The position numbers and the translations under genes are program-made. From NCBI GenBank assembly GCA_019454125.1, contig CP075365.1, forward strand, positions 738,218-802,217: 64,000 bases of DNA, written 5' to 3'. Source of the DNA: Fimbriimonadaceae bacterium. Its GTDB lineage: Bacteria > Armatimonadota > Fimbriimonadia > Fimbriimonadales > Fimbriimonadaceae. Position 1 is the stretch's first letter, and the number at the start of each line of letters is the position of its first letter. The notes under the pieces were generated by a model. That model was not told the origin of the DNA and did not search any database. It worked only from the letters and a program-made list of their open reading frames with translations. Below, piece by piece: positions 3,545 through 10,687 of this stretch.

Positions 3545-4674
3545 AGGTCGTCATCCTGAGCGCCTCCACCGGCAACGGGCACATGAGCGCGGCTTTCGCG
3601 GTCGAGAAAGAGCTCGAGGCCCGCGGGCACCGCGCCATCACCGTGGACACCCTGGATCACACCGGCCTCGCCTTCAAGACCTGGTACCGGGGTGGATACG
3701 AGATGCTCGTCCGGCGTATTCCCTGGCTTTGGGGCTGGCTCTACGGAGTCTCAGACTCGCCCGGGTTCGAGTTCAAGATCCAGAACTTCCTGGACACCGC
3801 CTTTGTCGAGCGCGTCCGGCCTTTGATCGACCAAGAGCGTCCGGACTGGGTGCTCTGCACGCACTCCCTGCCCCAGCCCGCCCTCGCCCGCTGGCGCCCG
3901 CAGATGGGCTTCAAGATGGGGATCATCGTCACCGACCTCTATCCGCAGTTGATGTGGCTACGGGGCGAGCCGGACCACTTCTTTGTCCCTGTCGAATGGA
4001 CGCGCGAGCGGCTCCTTTCCCGCATGCCCGCATTGAGCGGCAAGGTCACCGTGAGCGGCATGCCGATCGACCGCCGGTTCGGCGAGCGGCCGCTGAAGTC
4101 CGAGGTTCGGCAGAGCCTCGGCCTAGACCCGAGCCGGCCGACGGTGCTCGTCACGAGCGGCGGGATCGGGGGCGGCCCCCTGCGGGAGGCGGCGAGGGCG
4201 CTAGCGGCGGTGGACGGTGGGCTGCAGGGCATCGTGGTCTGCGGCCGCAACGAGGACGCCAGGCGCGGCGTGCTCGAGGCGCTCGAAGGGCGCGAGGCGT
4301 CCTTCAAGGTCCATGGCCATGTCTCCATCGACAAGATGATCGACTTCATGCATGCGGCGGACTTCATCGTGGCGAAGCCGGGCGGGCTCACCACGTTCGA
4401 GGCGATGGCGGCTGGCCTCCCGTTCTTGGTCTATAGGCCGTTCCTCATCCCGGGCCAGGAGGAGGGCAACGGCGACTTCTTGCAGGCCAACGGGATTGGC
4501 GAGTGGGTCGAAGGGTCGCTTTCGTTGACGAGCACGCTCCGCTCGCTCATCGAGGACCGTGGGCGGCTCGAGGCGATGTCAGCGGCGGCCTTGCGCCACG
4601 CCCAGCCGGACGCCACCCGCCTCATCGTGGACTCGCTGGAAACGCTCGGCGCCCCCATGGCCATGGCGCGCTAG
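3541..4674 (+). CDS. MGDG synthase-like (GT28) glycosyltransferase
   Basis: The start is a GTG overlapping the previous stop (GTGA), giving VKVVILSASTGNGHMSAAFA, the N-terminus typical of monogalactosyl/diglucosyl-diacylglycerol synthases. An HSLPQPALARW block and the C-terminal donor-binding FIVAKPGGLTTFEAMAAGLP region with the family Pro-Gly-Gly also fit. The 377-residue length is normal. Family members transfer glucose or galactose from a UDP-sugar to diacylglycerol at the inner membrane face. Together with the two upstream genes it forms a likely glycolipid synthesis operon. The sugar and lipid specificity cannot be read from sequence. It shares its CTAG stop with the convergent transporter gene. 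Confidence 0.8.
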   Translation: MKVVILSASTGNGHMSAAFAVEKELEARGHRAITVDTLDHTGLAFKTWYRGGYEMLVRRIPWLWGWLYGVSDSPGFEFKIQNFLDTAFVERVRPLIDQERPDWVLCTHSLPQPALARWRPQMGFKMGIIVTDLYPQLMWLRGEPDHFFVPVEWTRERLLSRMPALSGKVTVSGMPIDRRFGERPLKSEVRQSLGLDPSRPTVLVTSGGIGGGPLREAARALAAVDGGLQGIVVCGRNEDARRGVLEALEGREASFKVHGHVSIDKMIDFMHAADFIVAKPGGLTTFEAMAAGLPFLVYRPFLIPGQEEGNGDFLQANGIGEWVEGSLSLTSTLRSLIEDRGRLEAMSAAALRHAQPDATRLIVDSLETLGAPMAMAR

Positions 4675-7031
4675 GGGGCGTGGCCTGGAAAGCTTCGCGG
4701 CGGGCTCCCTTGTGTCGCCGCCTTCGCATAGGCGAGCGCCGCCACGAGGAACACGTCTTCGACGGCGACCTCCGCTAACGGGGCGACAGCGCAGTCGGGA
4801 CCCTCGCAGAGGGCCGAGATGGCCTCGGACTCGTTGCCGGCCGAATAGAGTTGGAGGGCTCGGCGCAGTTCCGGGCTCTTCGAACTGGCGCGGCGCAGCT
4901 CGTTCATCAGGACCGAATCGCGCGAGAACCCATCCAGCATGACGAGCCGGTAGACGCTTTCCTCGACCCCATAGAGGCGGGCGAGGGCGAGGAGGCAGCG
5001 CTTGCGCGTGGTGAGGGTTTGAGCGTGGGCCGCGACCCACCCGATGAGGGCGGTGTCTTCCTTCTCGCCGATCGTTCCGAGGGCGTAAGCCAACTCGCTC
5101 GAGGTCGCGGGATCGCCGCTCTGGATCGCTTGGCGCACGTTGGGGGCCAGCTCCTTAAGTCGCAATTCGCTCACGGCTTCGGCGGCCGCGGTGCGGACGC
5201 TCGGGTGGGGGTCGAGCAGCGCGTCTGCGATGGCGGGGGCCGCTTCGACCGCGCCGAGAAGGCGCAAGGCCTGGATTGCGGCACGGCGCAGGTCGGGGTC
5301 GCCCTGCTCCATCGCCGCTGCGGAGAGCGGCTGCACCGCGTCGGCCGAGCCGAGCTTGCCCAGCGTCTTCGCCGCTTGGCGGCGCAGCAGCGATCGCGGG
5401 TCTTGCAAGAACCGGGCGACGGTCGGGAAGGCCGTCGGCACGCGCAGGTCGCCCACCGCTTCCAAGGTCTCTTCCTCGACCAGTTCAGGGTGCTCTTCAA
5501 TGAAGGCAATCAACGCCTGGGTGGTCTCCCGTTCGCGCATTTGGGCGATGGAGATGGCGGCCTGGCGACGGACATGGGGCGAGGGGTCCTCCAGCGCCTT
5601 CACCACCTCTCCACCGGCCAGCGAGAACTTGCTGGTGCCGACGGTGGCGATGGCTTCGGCCCGGCCGGTCGCGTCGCCGAGCGTCGAGAGCCGCCGGAAG
5701 GCGGCCGCTCCGCGCCGACTGAACCGCCCCAATTGGGACAGGGTCTCTCCCAGCGCGCGGGCGCCCTCCTCCCGGATGGGGAAGACAAAGCCGGTCCCGA
5801 TGACGCGGATCACCATGACGGAGACGAACAGGACTTTGTAAGCGACCTCCGCGGGCATGCCCGTGCGGAGTTGGGTCATGGCCAGCGCCCCGATCATGGG
5901 CGCGATACCGCCCGTGAGCGATTGCACCGCGAGCACGAGGCCGAGGTAGTTCGGCCGGTCTACCGGGTCGCTGGTGGCGATCATCAGGTTCAGGTGGCAG
6001 ACTCCGATGCCCGACCAAACGGCCCCGTTGTAGATGTGGCCGAGGGTGAGGAGCATCGTGCTCCGGTTGGGGTCGCCCGGGAAGCAGAGCAGCCACATTC
6101 CGGGCGTGAGGATCGTGCCCGCCATCAGGATCGCCATGACCGGCTTGTTGCCATAGCGGTCCGCGATCGACCCCCAGAAGCGGGCGGTGAGCACGGTGCC
6201 GACGGCGTGCGCCACCTGGGTGATCTGGAGCTGCGTCAGGCTCATCCCGAGCGATTCGAACGCGAAGGAGGCGTAGAGGCCGCCCGCCACCGTCGCCCCG
6301 ATCATGAAGACCACCGTGAACCAGATCACCCGGCGGAAGTTCACGTCCTTGGCGGGGCGGGTCATCAAGAGCAGGCTCTCGCGCAGCCCAAGGCGCACCG
6401 GGTTCGGCCGCACCGTGTCCTTCATCCGCAGGAAGAACACCATGCTGACGATGGCGCAGACAAACCCGAGCCCGAACAGGGCGGAGTAGCCCACTGCCTC
6501 TTGTCCGTTCCGCTTGAAGGCGTCCACGATGAGGCCGCCTAAGAAGGCCATGGCCATGGCGACTGCGGTAGAGATCGCCGTACGGCGGCTGAAGTACCAC
6601 CCACGGCTGTTCGCGGGGACGAGCTCTGCGATCCAGTCGTTGTAGATCGGGCCCACGATCTGGACGGCGAGGGTCGCGAAAAGCAGGCATGCGGCCAACA
6701 CCAACAGGCTCACCTGGCCGGGCCATGGCAAAAGCGGGAGCAAGATCAGGGGGGCGTAGAGCAGCCTCCAGATCCAGCCCCCGGGCGTGATGAAGCGCTG
6801 GTAGTAAGGGAAGCCGCGTCCCCACGCCGCGCCGGGGATCTGGGCCAAGCCCATAAAGCTGGGCAGTGCGACCGTCAACTGCACCCAAAAGTCGTTCCCG
6901 CCTAAGAACCGGACGAAGCCGATGAGAAACGCCCCGCCGACGAGGGTACCGAACGCCGTCGAAAAAGCGACGTCGATGTTCGCGACCTGAAGGTTACGCA
7001 GGTTTTCAAGGCGGGAGGTGGCGTGCGCCAA
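4671..7031 (-). CDS. MFS-type transporter fused to C-terminal HEAT repeats
   Basis: A 786-residue protein. Residues 1-430 hold about twelve hydrophobic segments of a major facilitator-type permease, with a cytoplasmic loop IVGPIYNDWIAELVPANSRG and a second half beginning LRESLLLMTRPAKD. Residues 440-720 are repeated HEAT-like helical units such as DPSPHVRRQAAISIAQM, DPRSLLRRQAAKTLGKLG and DPHPSVRTAAAEAVSEL. The HEAT part should lie in the cytoplasm and bind a partner. The start is TTG, with the -10-like TAGAAT 9 bases upstream. The substrate is unknown. Its nearest relatives by layout would be MFS or nucleotide-translocase-type carriers with HEAT tails. Confidence 0.8.
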   Translation of the reverse strand: MAHATSRLENLRNLQVANIDVAFSTAFGTLVGGAFLIGFVRFLGGNDFWVQLTVALPSFMGLAQIPGAAWGRGFPYYQRFITPGGWIWRLLYAPLILLPLLPWPGQVSLLVLAACLLFATLAVQIVGPIYNDWIAELVPANSRGWYFSRRTAISTAVAMAMAFLGGLIVDAFKRNGQEAVGYSALFGLGFVCAIVSMVFFLRMKDTVRPNPVRLGLRESLLLMTRPAKDVNFRRVIWFTVVFMIGATVAGGLYASFAFESLGMSLTQLQITQVAHAVGTVLTARFWGSIADRYGNKPVMAILMAGTILTPGMWLLCFPGDPNRSTMLLTLGHIYNGAVWSGIGVCHLNLMIATSDPVDRPNYLGLVLAVQSLTGGIAPMIGALAMTQLRTGMPAEVAYKVLFVSVMVIRVIGTGFVFPIREEGARALGETLSQLGRFSRRGAAAFRRLSTLGDATGRAEAIATVGTSKFSLAGGEVVKALEDPSPHVRRQAAISIAQMRERETTQALIAFIEEHPELVEEETLEAVGDLRVPTAFPTVARFLQDPRSLLRRQAAKTLGKLGSADAVQPLSAAAMEQGDPDLRRAAIQALRLLGAVEAAPAIADALLDPHPSVRTAAAEAVSELRLKELAPNVRQAIQSGDPATSSELAYALGTIGEKEDTALIGWVAAHAQTLTTRKRCLLALARLYGVEESVYRLVMLDGFSRDSVLMNELRRASSKSPELRRALQLYSAGNESEAISALCEGPDCAVAPLAEVAVEDVFLVAALAYAKAATQGSPPRSFPGHAP

Positions 7032-7110: not shown

Positions 7111-7938
7111 CTAGATCGAAACGGCGACGATGTGCCGCAGGGCTTCGTCCAGGGTGGGCTCGCGGACGATGACGGCCTTGACCACGCCGTAGCCGTGGGT
7201 CAAGAGGCGGGCGGCCATCTCCTGTCCCCGCGCTGCCTGGAGCCGCACGCCCCCCGCCACCACAGTGACGTTCACCGCGAAGGGCTCCACCACTGCCCGC
7301 ACGGTGGACGGGTCGTCCGTTTCTACGGTGACTTCCACGTTCCCATGCCGACGGCGCAGCTCTTGGACATGACCGGCAAAGACGGGCTCCTCGCCCTTCA
7401 GCACGATCACATTCTCCGTCCGTTCGGCGACGGGGCTGAGGTTCGTCTGGACGATGGAGGCTCCCCCCTGCAGCACCAGGTCGAGCGTCTCTCGCCGCGT
7501 CCAGGGGTCAAATCGGTCCAACTGTCCGGCGATGAAGACGAGGGGGTCGCGATCGACCAAGGCGCCGACCAGTTCTGCGGCCGCCTGCTTCGACGGCGAG
7601 AGTTGGGCGACCGGACGCCGCCGCTCGTCCCAGAGTCCCAGCGCGCTCAGCACGACGGCGGCGCGTTCGGTGCCTTCGGGCAAGCCCTTTCGCGTGGCGA
7701 GCGCTTGGGCGGTGACCCGGCGGCTCGGGACGGGGACGCGGGGCCACCGGCCCTCGACGCCGGTCACGGCACCGCGGGCGGGGCGCTCGACACCGGCCAT
7801 CGCGCGGAGGAACTTGAGGGCGCCCTCCACGTCGGTCCCCATGAGCGCGTAGTGCTCCCCGGGCAAGACGTCCAGGCTCAAGGTGCGACCCTGTGGGGCG
7901 GTGGCGAAGCCGTCCAGTCGAAGGAGCGGCGCCGTCAA
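7111..7938 (-). CDS. Degenerate ABC transporter ATP-binding domain (pseudo-ATPase)
   Basis: The overall pattern is an ABC ATPase: LPGEHYALMG, RAMAGVERPARGAV, then QLSPSK where LSGGQ should be, and DPLVFIAGQLDRFDPWTRRE where the Walker B and D-loop should be. The nucleotide-binding residues are missing. The P-loop reads GTDVEGAL with no Lys or Ser/Thr, Walker B ends Ala-Gly-Gln instead of Asp-Glu, and the H-loop His is Asn (QTNLSP). The C-terminal third resembles the regulatory tails of some ABC ATPases. It therefore probably cannot hydrolyse ATP and may be a binding or structural subunit. No permease gene adjoins it. It starts with TTG overlapping the stop of the upstream M24 peptidase gene. 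Confidence 0.65.
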   Translation of the reverse strand: MTAPLLRLDGFATAPQGRTLSLDVLPGEHYALMGTDVEGALKFLRAMAGVERPARGAVTGVEGRWPRVPVPSRRVTAQALATRKGLPEGTERAAVVLSALGLWDERRRPVAQLSPSKQAAAELVGALVDRDPLVFIAGQLDRFDPWTRRETLDLVLQGGASIVQTNLSPVAERTENVIVLKGEEPVFAGHVQELRRRHGNVEVTVETDDPSTVRAVVEPFAVNVTVVAGGVRLQAARGQEMAARLLTHGYGVVKAVIVREPTLDEALRHIVAVSI

Positions 7939-9002
7939 CCCACGATCGTCAGCTCTTTCGGATACGATGTCAGCACCTCCGGCCCGTTCGGAGTCACGAG
8001 CACGTCGTCTTCGATGCGCACGCCTCCAAACCCTTCGATGTAGACGCCAGGCTCGACCGTCCAGACCTGCCCCGCTTCGATCTCGTCTTCCGAACGGGGG
8101 CCCAGTTGACCCAGATCGTGGACCGCGCGGCCGAGGCCGTGACCCAGCCCGTGGCCGAAATAGCCGTCGAGCCCCTTCTCCTTCAGCACCTCGCGGGCGA
8201 CGCCGTCCACGTCCTTGGCCTGCCTTCCCGGCAGGAGTGCCTGGGTCGATCTTTCCAAGGCGAGCAGCACCTGGTCATAGACCTCGCGGTGCCGGTCGGA
8301 AGCCTCTCCCACCACGAACGTCCGGGTGATGTCGCTGCAATAGCCCTCCAGCCGACAACCGAGGTCGAGGGTGACGAAGTCCCCTTTCTCGATCTTGCGG
8401 TCGGAGGGATGGGCGTGGGGCCGCGCGCTGTTCGGTCCGCTCGCGACGATGGGCGAGAACCCAACCTCCGCCCCGTTCTTGCGGAAGTAGAACTCGATCT
8501 CCAGACCCAGGTCGAACTCCGTCACGCCCGGCTGGATGGCGCGGCGCACGTGGTTGATGCAGGCTTCCGTAAGGCCGATCGCGCGCCGGATCTTCGCGAC
8601 TTCGTCCTCGGTCTTCACCATGCGGAGCGGCTTGAGCACGTCCTTGGTCGGGACGAGTCGCAACCCCGTCATGGCCTTCGTCCAGTCTTCCCAGGTCGCA
8701 TAGATGCACGAGGTCTCAAAGCCGAGTTCCTGGATGCCCATAGCCTGGGCGTTCTCGGCGATGAATTCGGAGGACTTCTTGGGGCTCGCGAAGGATTCGA
8801 CCCGCATGTTCTTGACCTCTTCGCCAGCCTGGATCGTATAGCGGCTGTCGGTGAGGAAGCGGGCGTCTGTCGGGGTGACGATGACGAATCCCGAAGAGCC
8901 GGAGAAGTCGGAAAGCCACTGGACGTTCGCCAGATCACTGACGAGGAGGGCGGCGACCCCTTGGTCGCGGAGGCGGGCCTGCAGGCGTTCTAGGTTGCTC
9001 AT
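7935..9002 (-). CDS. Xaa-Pro aminopeptidase-like M24 metallopeptidase
   Basis: A 355-residue M24 peptidase (PepP/PepQ group). The N-terminal creatinase-like domain has ALLVSDLANVQWLSDFSGS and FLTDSRYTIQA. The C-terminal pita-bread domain carries the metal ligands in VTLDLGCRLEGYCSDITRTF (two Asp), GHGLGHGLG (His) and VWTVEPGVYI and VRIEDDVLVT (two Glu). It removes N-terminal residues before proline, or cleaves X-Pro dipeptides, using two metal ions in the cytoplasm. The gene follows aroQ by five bases and overlaps the degenerate ABC gene by four, so they are likely one transcript. Confidence 0.9.
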   Translation of the reverse strand: MSNLERLQARLRDQGVAALLVSDLANVQWLSDFSGSSGFVIVTPTDARFLTDSRYTIQAGEEVKNMRVESFASPKKSSEFIAENAQAMGIQELGFETSCIYATWEDWTKAMTGLRLVPTKDVLKPLRMVKTEDEVAKIRRAIGLTEACINHVRRAIQPGVTEFDLGLEIEFYFRKNGAEVGFSPIVASGPNSARPHAHPSDRKIEKGDFVTLDLGCRLEGYCSDITRTFVVGEASDRHREVYDQVLLALERSTQALLPGRQAKDVDGVAREVLKEKGLDGYFGHGLGHGLGRAVHDLGQLGPRSEDEIEAGQVWTVEPGVYIEGFGGVRIEDDVLVTPNGPEVLTSYPKELTIVG

Positions 9003-9007
9003 GGGAA

Positions 9008-9463
9008 TCAGATGGAGCCGGTCTCGGCGGTGGCCAGGGCCCTCAGGGCGAGGATGTACCCGTTGCTGCCGAAGCCGGTGATCGTGCCCAGGCAGATGGG
9101 GGCGACCACGGAATGGCGGCGAAAGTCTTCGCGCGCGTCCACGTTCGTCATGTGTACCTCGATCACGGGCAGGCGGACGCTGACTAGAGCGTCGCGGAGG
9201 GCGATGGAGTAGTGGGTAAGCCCGCCCGGGTTGATCACGATCGCGTTGGCCCAGCGGCGGTGTTCCTGGATCGCGTCGATGAGGACTCCCTCGTGGTTGC
9301 TCTGCAGCGTGCGCACCTCGATGTCCATCTGCGCCGCAGCCTTGAGGATGTCCTCGTCGATCTCCGCCAGCGGCTTCTTGCCGTAGAGCTCGGGCTCACG
9401 GAATCCCGTGAGGTTGATGTTCGGCCCGTGAAGCACGAGCACCTTCTTCTGTTCACCCGCCAT
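9008..9463 (-). CDS. aroQ: Type II 3-dehydroquinate dehydratase
   Basis: A 151-residue type II dehydroquinase, the third step of the shikimate pathway. LVLHGPNINLTGFREPELYG holds the catalytic Tyr near the N-terminus. QSNHEGVLIDAIQE, VINPGGLTHYSIALRDAL (His) and VEVHMTNVDAREDFRRHS complete the family motifs. The ATG at 9463 is chosen because it gives the canonical N-terminus; upstream in-frame sequence is not family-like. It overlaps the end of a Trm112-like gene by 11 bases. Another shikimate gene, the DAHP synthase at 24810, is not linked. Confidence 0.93.
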   Translation of the reverse strand: MAGEQKKVLVLHGPNINLTGFREPELYGKKPLAEIDEDILKAAAQMDIEVRTLQSNHEGVLIDAIQEHRRWANAIVINPGGLTHYSIALRDALVSVRLPVIEVHMTNVDAREDFRRHSVVAPICLGTITGFGSNGYILALRALATAETGSI

Positions 9464-9635
9464 TTGGCCCCTCCGGGGGTTCGGCTTCCTCAGCCAAGAG
9501 GTTTGGGATGCCGTCTTCGATGCGGAAGCGGTAGTGGCAGACCGGGCAGACGAGGCGGTCGCCCTGGAGGGCCAAGGCGGGCCGTTCGTCGCATCGGGGG
9601 CAGGCGAGGATCGCAAGCAAGTCCGGGTCGATCAA
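9453..9635 (-). CDS. Trm112 family zinc-ribbon-like protein
   Basis: A 60-residue protein of the Trm112/YcaR type: MIDPDLLAILACPRCDERPAL, then VCPVCHYRFRIEDGIPNLL. The two Cys-x-x-Cys pairs form a small zinc-ribbon-like site. Bacterial members are often found near lipid A or cell-envelope genes and are thought to help partner enzymes, but direct functions are rarely known. It begins with TTG overlapping the stop of the glycosyltransferase upstream (TTGA) and runs into aroQ. Confidence 0.8.
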   Translation of the reverse strand: MIDPDLLAILACPRCDERPALALQGDRLVCPVCHYRFRIEDGIPNLLAEEAEPPEGPNGG

Positions 9636-10687
9636 CCGGCCACCTCGCGATACGCGTCCGCCGCGACCCGCGCCGAATCTGCCCAGTCGAAATCCTTGAC
9701 CCGGGCCGCCCCCCGCTCTCGCATCGCAGCTAATTTACTCGAATCGGCCAAGAGCCCGGTGACGGCGCGTGCCCAGTCCGCAGGTTCGAAGCTGGGGCAG
9801 ACCTCGGCCGCCCCTCCCGCCACCTCCGGCAACGCCCCACCGCGTGAACAAAGCACGGGGCACTCGCTGGCGAACGCCTCTAGCAGAGGAATTCCAAACC
9901 CTTCATGGCAGGATGGCGCGAGGTAAAGCGTGGCCCGCCGGTAGAGCGCTGCGAGCGTGAGGTCGTCCACATATCCGGTGAAGATCGCCCCGTCCGGCTC
10001 GGGGCTGCCCCAAGCCTTGCCGGTCAGGACAAGGGGGATTTGGGCCACCTTCGCCGCCTCTGCCGCCAGGGCCATGTTCTTCCTTGGCCAACGGGTCCCG
10101 ACGCTCAGCAGGTACTGCTCGGGCAGGCCCAGGGGCCGGAGGATTTCCTCTGCTTCGAGCCGAGTCAGTCGGGGCCAGTCGTCGCGGAGCGCGTTGGGGG
10201 TCACCGCCGTTTTGCCGGCCGCGCCCGGCAGATAGCGCTCGATCTCCCCCCGGCTGGTCTCCGAGACGGTGAAGACCTTGGCCGCTCGCCGCACGGAACC
10301 GGGCAAACCCTTGCGGAGCAGGGCGCCGTCGCGGGCGGAGAACCATGCGGGATCGACGAAGAACGAGACGTCGTGGATGGTCGTCATCCCTGCCCGACCC
10401 GCCATCGGCGAGAGAAAGTACTGGGTGTGCAGCGCCTTCGCCGCCTTGCGGGCGGCCAAGGGGAACCGGACGAGGCTCCACCACCGCTCGCTGCCTCCCG
10501 GCACATGGAGCCAGGCGAAATCTTCCAGGGCGGGAATCCCGACAGGCTTCGGAGCGTTTGAAACGAGCAGGGCCTGCGAAACGAAGCCGATTCGGCGCAA
10601 CCCGCCGATCAAACCGCGCCAATAACTGGTGTCCCCAGTCATGGTGCGGGTGGCCAGGCGGGCGTCTATCGCGACGGTGAAGCGCAT
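9632..10687 (-). CDS. GT4-family glycosyltransferase
   Basis: A 351-residue GT-B glycosyltransferase of the GT4 family. The N-terminal domain starts VAIDARLATRTMTGDTSYW. The C-terminal donor-binding domain has LLSVGTRWPRKNMALAAEAA, FTGYVDDLTLAALYRRATLY and the EX7E-like block PSCHEGFGIPLLEAFASECP. Such enzymes build polysaccharides, glycolipids or protein glycans from nucleotide sugars at the cytoplasmic membrane face. It leads a minus-strand cluster with the Trm112-like, aroQ, M24 and ABC-like genes. The product is unknown. Confidence 0.82.
   Translation of the reverse strand: MRFTVAIDARLATRTMTGDTSYWRGLIGGLRRIGFVSQALLVSNAPKPVGIPALEDFAWLHVPGGSERWWSLVRFPLAARKAAKALHTQYFLSPMAGRAGMTTIHDVSFFVDPAWFSARDGALLRKGLPGSVRRAAKVFTVSETSRGEIERYLPGAAGKTAVTPNALRDDWPRLTRLEAEEILRPLGLPEQYLLSVGTRWPRKNMALAAEAAKVAQIPLVLTGKAWGSPEPDGAIFTGYVDDLTLAALYRRATLYLAPSCHEGFGIPLLEAFASECPVLCSRGGALPEVAGGAAEVCPSFEPADWARAVTGLLADSSKLAAMRERGAARVKDFDWADSARVAADAYREVAG

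Follow-up and report, generated by a model that had tools for sequence, protein, structure and literature searches.

A stand-alone ABC-type protein of Armatimonadota with lost catalytic motifs, predicted to be a pseudo-ATPase

Transporters with degenerate ABC sites are well known. An active ABC ATPase needs the Lys-Ser/Thr of Walker A, the Asp-Glu of Walker B, the LSGGQ signature, the H-loop His and the Q-loop Gln, and it is the Q-loop that couples the ABC core to the permease. The ABC fold is also used outside membrane transport with working ATP sites, as in PhnK and PhnL of C-P lyase, SufC, UvrA and Rad50. NosF of the NosDFY system (PDB 7o0y) and the DrrA-type ABC-2 ATPases carry a C-terminal R-type domain behind the ABC core. 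Among the known degenerate sites, the nearest parallel to the protein described here is NBD1 of Pdr5, in which the Lys is replaced by Cys, the Glu by Asn and the His by Tyr (PMC7756269). No description of a permease-free ABC family of the kind described here was found in the literature searched, which covers few subscription journals.

The stretch of DNA that was analysed, hereafter the window, comprises 64,000 nucleotides of a Fimbriimonadaceae genome, and the genes around the ABC-type gene are arranged as follows.

Positions 4671-7031, minus strand: MFS protein with HEAT repeats, downstream of the ABC gene and past a gap
Positions 7111..7938, minus strand: predicted ABC-type pseudo-ATPase, 275 aa, TTG start (ORF listing, Pfam, AlphaFold model)
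Within 7111..7938, minus strand: ABC core of the predicted pseudo-ATPase, about residues 1-190
Within 7111..7938, minus strand: C-terminal DrrA/NosF R-like domain of the predicted pseudo-ATPase, about residues 191-275
Positions 7935..9002, minus strand: M24 metallopeptidase (Creatinase_N + Peptidase_M24; Pfam M24, 229 bits)
Positions 9008..9463, minus strand: aroQ, type II dehydroquinase (ORF to 9616; likely start the ATG at 9463)
Positions 9632..10687, minus strand: family 4 glycosyltransferase (GT4), first gene of a conserved GT4-aroQ-M24 block

The ABC gene is a genuine coding sequence. Its G+C content at the three codon positions (0.77/0.48/0.86) is similar to that of the adjoining genes and its reading frame is conserved in relatives, in agreement with the initial annotation, which had held that an intact frame overlapping the peptidase stop is not a simple pseudogene. 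The overlap between the M24 stop and the TTG start is 4 nt, which makes coupled translation likely. A promoter and terminator scan of the locus was uninformative. Pfam analysis of the neighbours confirmed that no ABC permease adjoins the gene in the window, the MFS-HEAT gene lying downstream and the M24, aroQ and glycosyltransferase genes upstream. The joining of an MFS domain to a C-terminal HEAT-repeat array is an unusual architecture in itself, and no such gene was found beside the ABC gene in the relatives examined.

The window protein scores 21.0 bits against Pfam ABC_tran (PF00005), under the gathering cut-off of 25 and so outside that Pfam family, and 22.1 bits against DrrA1-3_C, under the cut-off of 27.4; its best NCBIfam match, drrA, is far under its cut-off. 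Relatives from outside the window's own family pass the ABC_tran cut-off (62, 85 and 87 bits at loci L036, L153 and L147). The AlphaFold model of the window protein (mean pLDDT 90.0, pTM 0.85) has an ABC core followed by a C-terminal R-type domain, and its top full-length structure matches are NosF and ABCA4; NosF chain 7o0y_B aligns with a Z of 21.1 and an rmsd of 4.2 over 271 residues (VIA alignment). PhnK structures are also among the matches. In the model the ABC fold survives the loss of its motifs, and over its whole length, R-domain included, the protein resembles NosF and the DrrA-type ATPases.

The motif remnants are placed on the window below, with coordinates derived by hand from residue numbers; the canonical motif residues and positions are general background for ABC proteins, and the letters themselves come from the sequence.

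Positions 7816..7839, minus strand: Walker A remnant GTDVEGAL, residues 34-41, with Ala for Lys and Leu for Ser/Thr
Positions 7588..7602, minus strand: signature remnant LSPSK, residues 113-117
Positions 7525..7542, minus strand: Walker B remnant LVFIAG, residues 133-138, with Ala-Gly for Asp-Glu
Positions 7501..7518, minus strand: D-loop region DRFDPW, residues 141-146, conserved
Positions 7186..7227, minus strand: C-terminal block GQEMAARLLTHGYG at residues 238-251, where conservation within the family is highest

The H-loop reads QTN, with Asn in place of His, and the Q-loop segment is absent, a loss that the initial annotation had overlooked. Of seven scored motif residues a single one, the signature Ser, is left, and the window protein lacks what an active ABC ATPase needs. 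The claim that an ABC-type domain had lost its catalytic motifs while the framework and D-loop remained is borne out, DRFDPW being kept and the fold being intact in the model. To judge from these residues, the protein is very probably not an ATPase, and there is a good probability that the window copy binds no nucleotide at all.

The losses are not confined to the window. In our numbering of genome families f1 is that of the window, f1 to f5 lie within its class, and f15, f19, f26 and f33-f35 lie outside the class in the same phylum. A first search over 61 genomes, the window's own and relatives, found 55 with a match, in many cases to an ordinary ABC protein. With profile A1, built from 46 rows and searched over 113 class genomes, members stand apart at E <= 1e-53, ordinary ABC proteins reaching about 1e-32 at best. 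The profile finds orthologues in 72 of the 85 f1 genomes, 14 of the 18 f2 genomes and the one f4 genome, and none in the eight f5 genomes or the one f3 genome; a further f2 genome, G110, carries a fragment where a contig ends, and some class genomes without a member are incomplete. A phylum-wide profile search matched 136 of 291 genomes at 1e-30, 49 of them outside the class, the weakest of which may be ordinary ABC proteins; the outside-class counts given below cover 24 of these 49, taken mostly from the top of the list. No member was found in 15 genomes of other phyla, a small sample. The three best matches there are ordinary DrrA-type ATPases with motifs intact, as read from their sequences, and all three loci also hold a full-length ABC-2-like permease frame recognised by eye. 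A plasmid search returned generic ABC matches only. Within the limits of that small sample beyond the phylum, the family was found only in Armatimonadota.

The motif table covers 112 genomes (72 f1, 14 f2, 1 f4, 1 f3 and 24 outside the class); the f3 row, an ordinary ABC protein that has both Glu and His, serves as a contrast and is left out of the 111 members. The Walker A Lys is kept in 55/72 f1, 14/14 f2, 1/1 f4 and 24/24 examined outside-class members, and Lys together with Ser/Thr in 51/72, 14/14, 1/1 and 24/24. The Walker B Glu is present in 4/72 f1, 1/14 f2, 0/1 f4 and 1/24 outside-class members; its position is held by Gly in 45/72 f1, by Asp in 12/14 f2 and by Ser or Asn in 17/24 outside the class. 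The H-loop His remains in 14/72 f1, 0/14 f2, 0/1 f4 and 2/24 outside-class members, and is Arg throughout f2 (14/14). No member out of the 111 combines Glu with His. The finding that the initial annotation had named as a refutation, close homologues with intact Walker motifs, was made by half: 51 f1 members keep Lys-Ser/Thr, but none has Glu and His together. From the same counts it follows that catalysis disappeared well before the P-loop did. Five of the 72 f1 members, the window among them, are without all four of Lys, Asp, Glu and His, which makes the window copy an extreme case.

In a quick tree computed without the motif columns, f1 forms one clade (SH-aLRT 99) and f2 another (84); the deeper forks are weak and the outside-class rows do not form one clade (4 changes). 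The Lys state requires at least 11 changes on this tree, and every row without Lys belongs to f1. A single origin of the whole family set is likely, and the pattern indicates that the catalytic loss is old and the loss of the P-loop later and repeated.

The widespread retention of the Walker A Lys where Glu and His are mostly gone would suit a family of ATP sensors, which bind ATP without hydrolysing it and so switch a partner, the window copy being a ligand-less form locked in one state. We regard this as possible but on the doubtful side. In 16 f1 copies, that of the window included, the Lys is replaced, and one more, G070, has a gap at this position, its N-terminal part being without a profile match; ATP binding therefore cannot be the common function in f1.

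The link to a membrane partner has also been lost within the class. The median number of residues from Walker A to the signature is 74 in f1, 74 in f2, 85 in f4 (one row) and 88 outside the class, compared with 96 in ordinary ABC proteins (27 rows), and the Q-loop segment is deleted or shortened in f1, f2 and f4. Among the 87 f1, f2 and f4 rows there is not a single Gln in the Q-loop column, against 7 in the 24 outside-class rows. A small ABC-2-like membrane protein lies directly behind the gene at 15 of the 24 outside-class loci, and at none of the 88 class rows, a few of which have short flanks. Within the class, then, the Q-loop segment and the permease are lost jointly. Twelve of the 15 membrane proteins come from f33-f35 and have a conserved part of about 115-120 aa; the other three are frames of 240 and 225 aa (f15 and f26) and of 135 aa (f19). 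A profile of the twelve matches 13 genomes at E 1e-21 or better, all in f33-f35, and gives two weak partial matches in the 113 class genomes.

The small membrane proteins (L153 5965-6315, L155 4656-5006, L147 4687-5034 and others) stand behind Walker B-defective ABC proteins in f33-f35, and for the one at L153 no Pfam or NCBIfam family was found. The AlphaFold model (pLDDT 90.5) has an N-terminal helix followed by helices at residues 19-38, 43-74 (long), 76-81 (short) and 87-116, a predicted layout suggestive of the N-terminal half of an ABC-2 permease. The top Foldseek matches are NosY and CcmB, at weak E values of 0.7-1.4, and hhalign of the profile with three full permeases gives a weak probability of 41%. 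The f33-f35 membrane protein and its ABC protein are possibly a minimal ABC-2 system. A different neighbour was seen by eye in f4, where a Walker B-defective ABC protein lies directly behind an RND efflux pump gene (L031 2-3835).

These observations bear on whether the window protein might belong, as the degenerate half, to an asymmetric ABC transporter of the Pdr5 or TM287/288 kind, with the active ATPase and the permease encoded elsewhere. Pdr5 NBD1 and the degenerate sites of heterodimeric exporters have lost the same residues, Walker A Lys, Walker B Glu and H-loop His, but belong to proteins with membrane domains and an active partner site (PMC7756269); the window protein has no membrane domain. 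The small membrane protein that adjoins the gene outside the class also speaks for such a half. Against it, the Q-loop segment is deleted across the class, relatives of the small membrane protein are limited there to the two weak partial matches, and a search of the window's own genome for ABC2_membrane_3 gave two matches that already sit beside an ABC ATPase of their own. The genome context offers no candidate for the partner NBD of a heterodimeric transporter. The signature is degraded too, unlike that of Pdr5 NBD1 and the heterodimeric exporters, and by the geometry of an ABC heterodimer a degraded signature would spoil both sites. We consider a transporter half unlikely.

Compared with NosF and DrrA, the window protein is without catalytic residues, P-loop, Q-loop segment and the adjacent ABC-2 permease of such transporters. 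With PhnK and PhnL, SufC, UvrA and Rad50 it would share the use of an ABC fold outside membrane transport, and it differs from them in that its ATP sites are gone. We think it probable that the protein works outside transport.

As a control we used an ordinary ABC-2 paralogue in 11 f1 genomes, 20 loci having been fetched and 9 from other ortholog groups excluded. Walker A, the Walker B Glu and the H-loop His are intact in all 11, so the loss of motifs is specific to the pseudo-ATPase family. In these genomes, identity in the control paralogue is 72% in the core and 43% in the C-terminal domain; in the pseudo-ATPase it is 28% and 36%, respectively (30% and 37% over all 72 f1 proteins). The alignments indicate that in the pseudo-ATPase constraint has shifted away from the nucleotide core and onto the C-terminal domain. 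Among the best conserved f1 columns are those of the D-loop region and of the block GQ..AA.LL..GYG. The intact paralogue also bears on a sequencing or assembly error in an otherwise ordinary ABC ATPase, for which nothing was found beyond the intact P-loop of many relatives: the lost residues are scattered over an unbroken frame, and losses of the same kinds recur in genomes of many other genera. The chance of such an error is negligible. Nor is the loss in the window copy a matter of local decay, given orthologues in 72 of the 85 f1 genomes, 68 of them directly behind M24.

Selection was estimated by the NG86 method in 19 pairs. Ten pairs with dS <= 1.3, the window excluded, have dN/dS of 0.01-0.23, with 0.08 for one of them, G085/G086, whose copies have no P-loop; four pairs with dS 1.8-2.8 give 0.08-0.27, and two further pairs are saturated. 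Three pairs that include the window (about 40% identity, dS 1.3-2.0) give unreliable values of 0.34-0.49. The closest relative of the window protein is 43% identical, and the selection on the window gene itself is therefore not measurable from relatives. By these estimates, close relatives within the family evolve under purifying selection. The initial annotation had suggested a pseudo-ATPase that could regulate a partner. The first half of this is supported by an orthologous family without Glu and His together, an intact ABC fold and purifying selection between close relatives; the regulatory role is putative. The fold is kept and the catalytic residues are lost in conserved, selected orthologues, as expected of a pseudoenzyme, its inactivity being predicted.

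One may still ask whether the gene is a slowly decaying relic without function, kept in its operon by chance. It evolves fast, with a mean identity over 65 genomes of 33%, compared with 54% for M24 and 73% for aroQ; its motifs were lost many times independently; and it is missing from 13 of the 85 f1 genomes, some of them incomplete, and is thus dispensable. A relic is nevertheless improbable, and a selected function well favoured in our judgement: frames in f1 are open across the family profile, apart from the missing N-terminal match in G070, dN/dS is far under 1 in close pairs, the pair without a P-loop included, the C-terminal motif is almost invariant and synteny is kept.

In 68 of the 72 f1 members the ABC gene comes directly after M24, in the same orientation; this is the co-occurrence that the initial annotation had proposed to look for. 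The four exceptions are G036, G108 and G035, on other or broken contigs, and G003, 1.5 kb away. Genomes of f3 and f5 have the GT4-aroQ-M24 block but no ABC gene, and the nine f1 loci read that lack the gene still have M24, with no remnant of the ABC gene behind it. We infer that the gene entered the block at the root of f1 and later disappeared from some lines. In partial correlations of pairwise distances over 65 genomes, ABC-M24 reaches 0.46 given aroQ, a value reached in 0 of 999 permutations, and ABC-aroQ reaches 0.36 given M24; the two values are similar, so that M24 is not singled out. The link with M24 may be passive operon membership, and that the pseudo-ATPase acts on or with M24 seems to us rather unlikely. 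At several f1 loci, L049-L056 among them, the next gene downstream, on the opposite strand, resembles selB by eye, and an isoaspartyl-peptidase-like gene, also recognised by eye, is near.

In f2 the ABC gene sits behind exosortase and EpsI genes instead of M24. An exosortase gene lies on the same contig, about 0.8-1.1 kb off, in 13 of the 14 f2 members, and on another contig in G111; neither M24 nor exosortase is a universal neighbour of the family. The f2 loci L033 and L035-L046 have exosortase, EpsI, UbiA-like and GtrA genes upstream of the ABC gene. An exosortase link as a general function was considered and rejected. Exosortase is found in 99 of the 113 class genomes anyway, six f1 genomes (G062, G073, G075, G076, G078 and G097) have the ABC protein and no detected exosortase, and the exosortase operon of the window's genome lies elsewhere and holds no such ABC protein. 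That operon, outside the window at L243 8522-10987, contains exosortase, EpsI and a UbiA-type gene in an exopolysaccharide-like arrangement, the names being given partly by eye.

The reading that we favour, with reasonable though far from full confidence, is that the window protein is a stand-alone ABC pseudo-ATPase, derived from a NosF/DrrA-type transport ATPase and now a nucleotide-independent scaffold or regulator. The ABC core would serve as a fixed scaffold, possibly still pairing through its conserved D-loop, and the conserved C-terminal domain (GQ..AA.LL..GYG) would bind a putative partner. Translational coupling would keep the pseudo-ATPase in step with M24, the leading candidate for that partner. 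A stepwise history has a slightly better than even chance of being right: in this clade of Armatimonadota, a soluble ABC protein would have lost catalysis, then the permease together with the Q-loop segment, and then, in several lineages, ATP binding, with the C-terminal domain left as the working part.

Genes of this kind should not be annotated as transporter ATPases. What would set the family apart from the degenerate sites inside transporters is that it is permease-free and that its losses came stepwise. If our interpretation is correct, a nucleotide-independent scaffold or regulator evolved by degrees from a transporter motor, with the intermediates still alive in relatives; thanks to their survival the route from motor to pseudoenzyme could be tested directly, and the family would give the pseudoenzyme field an ABC example.
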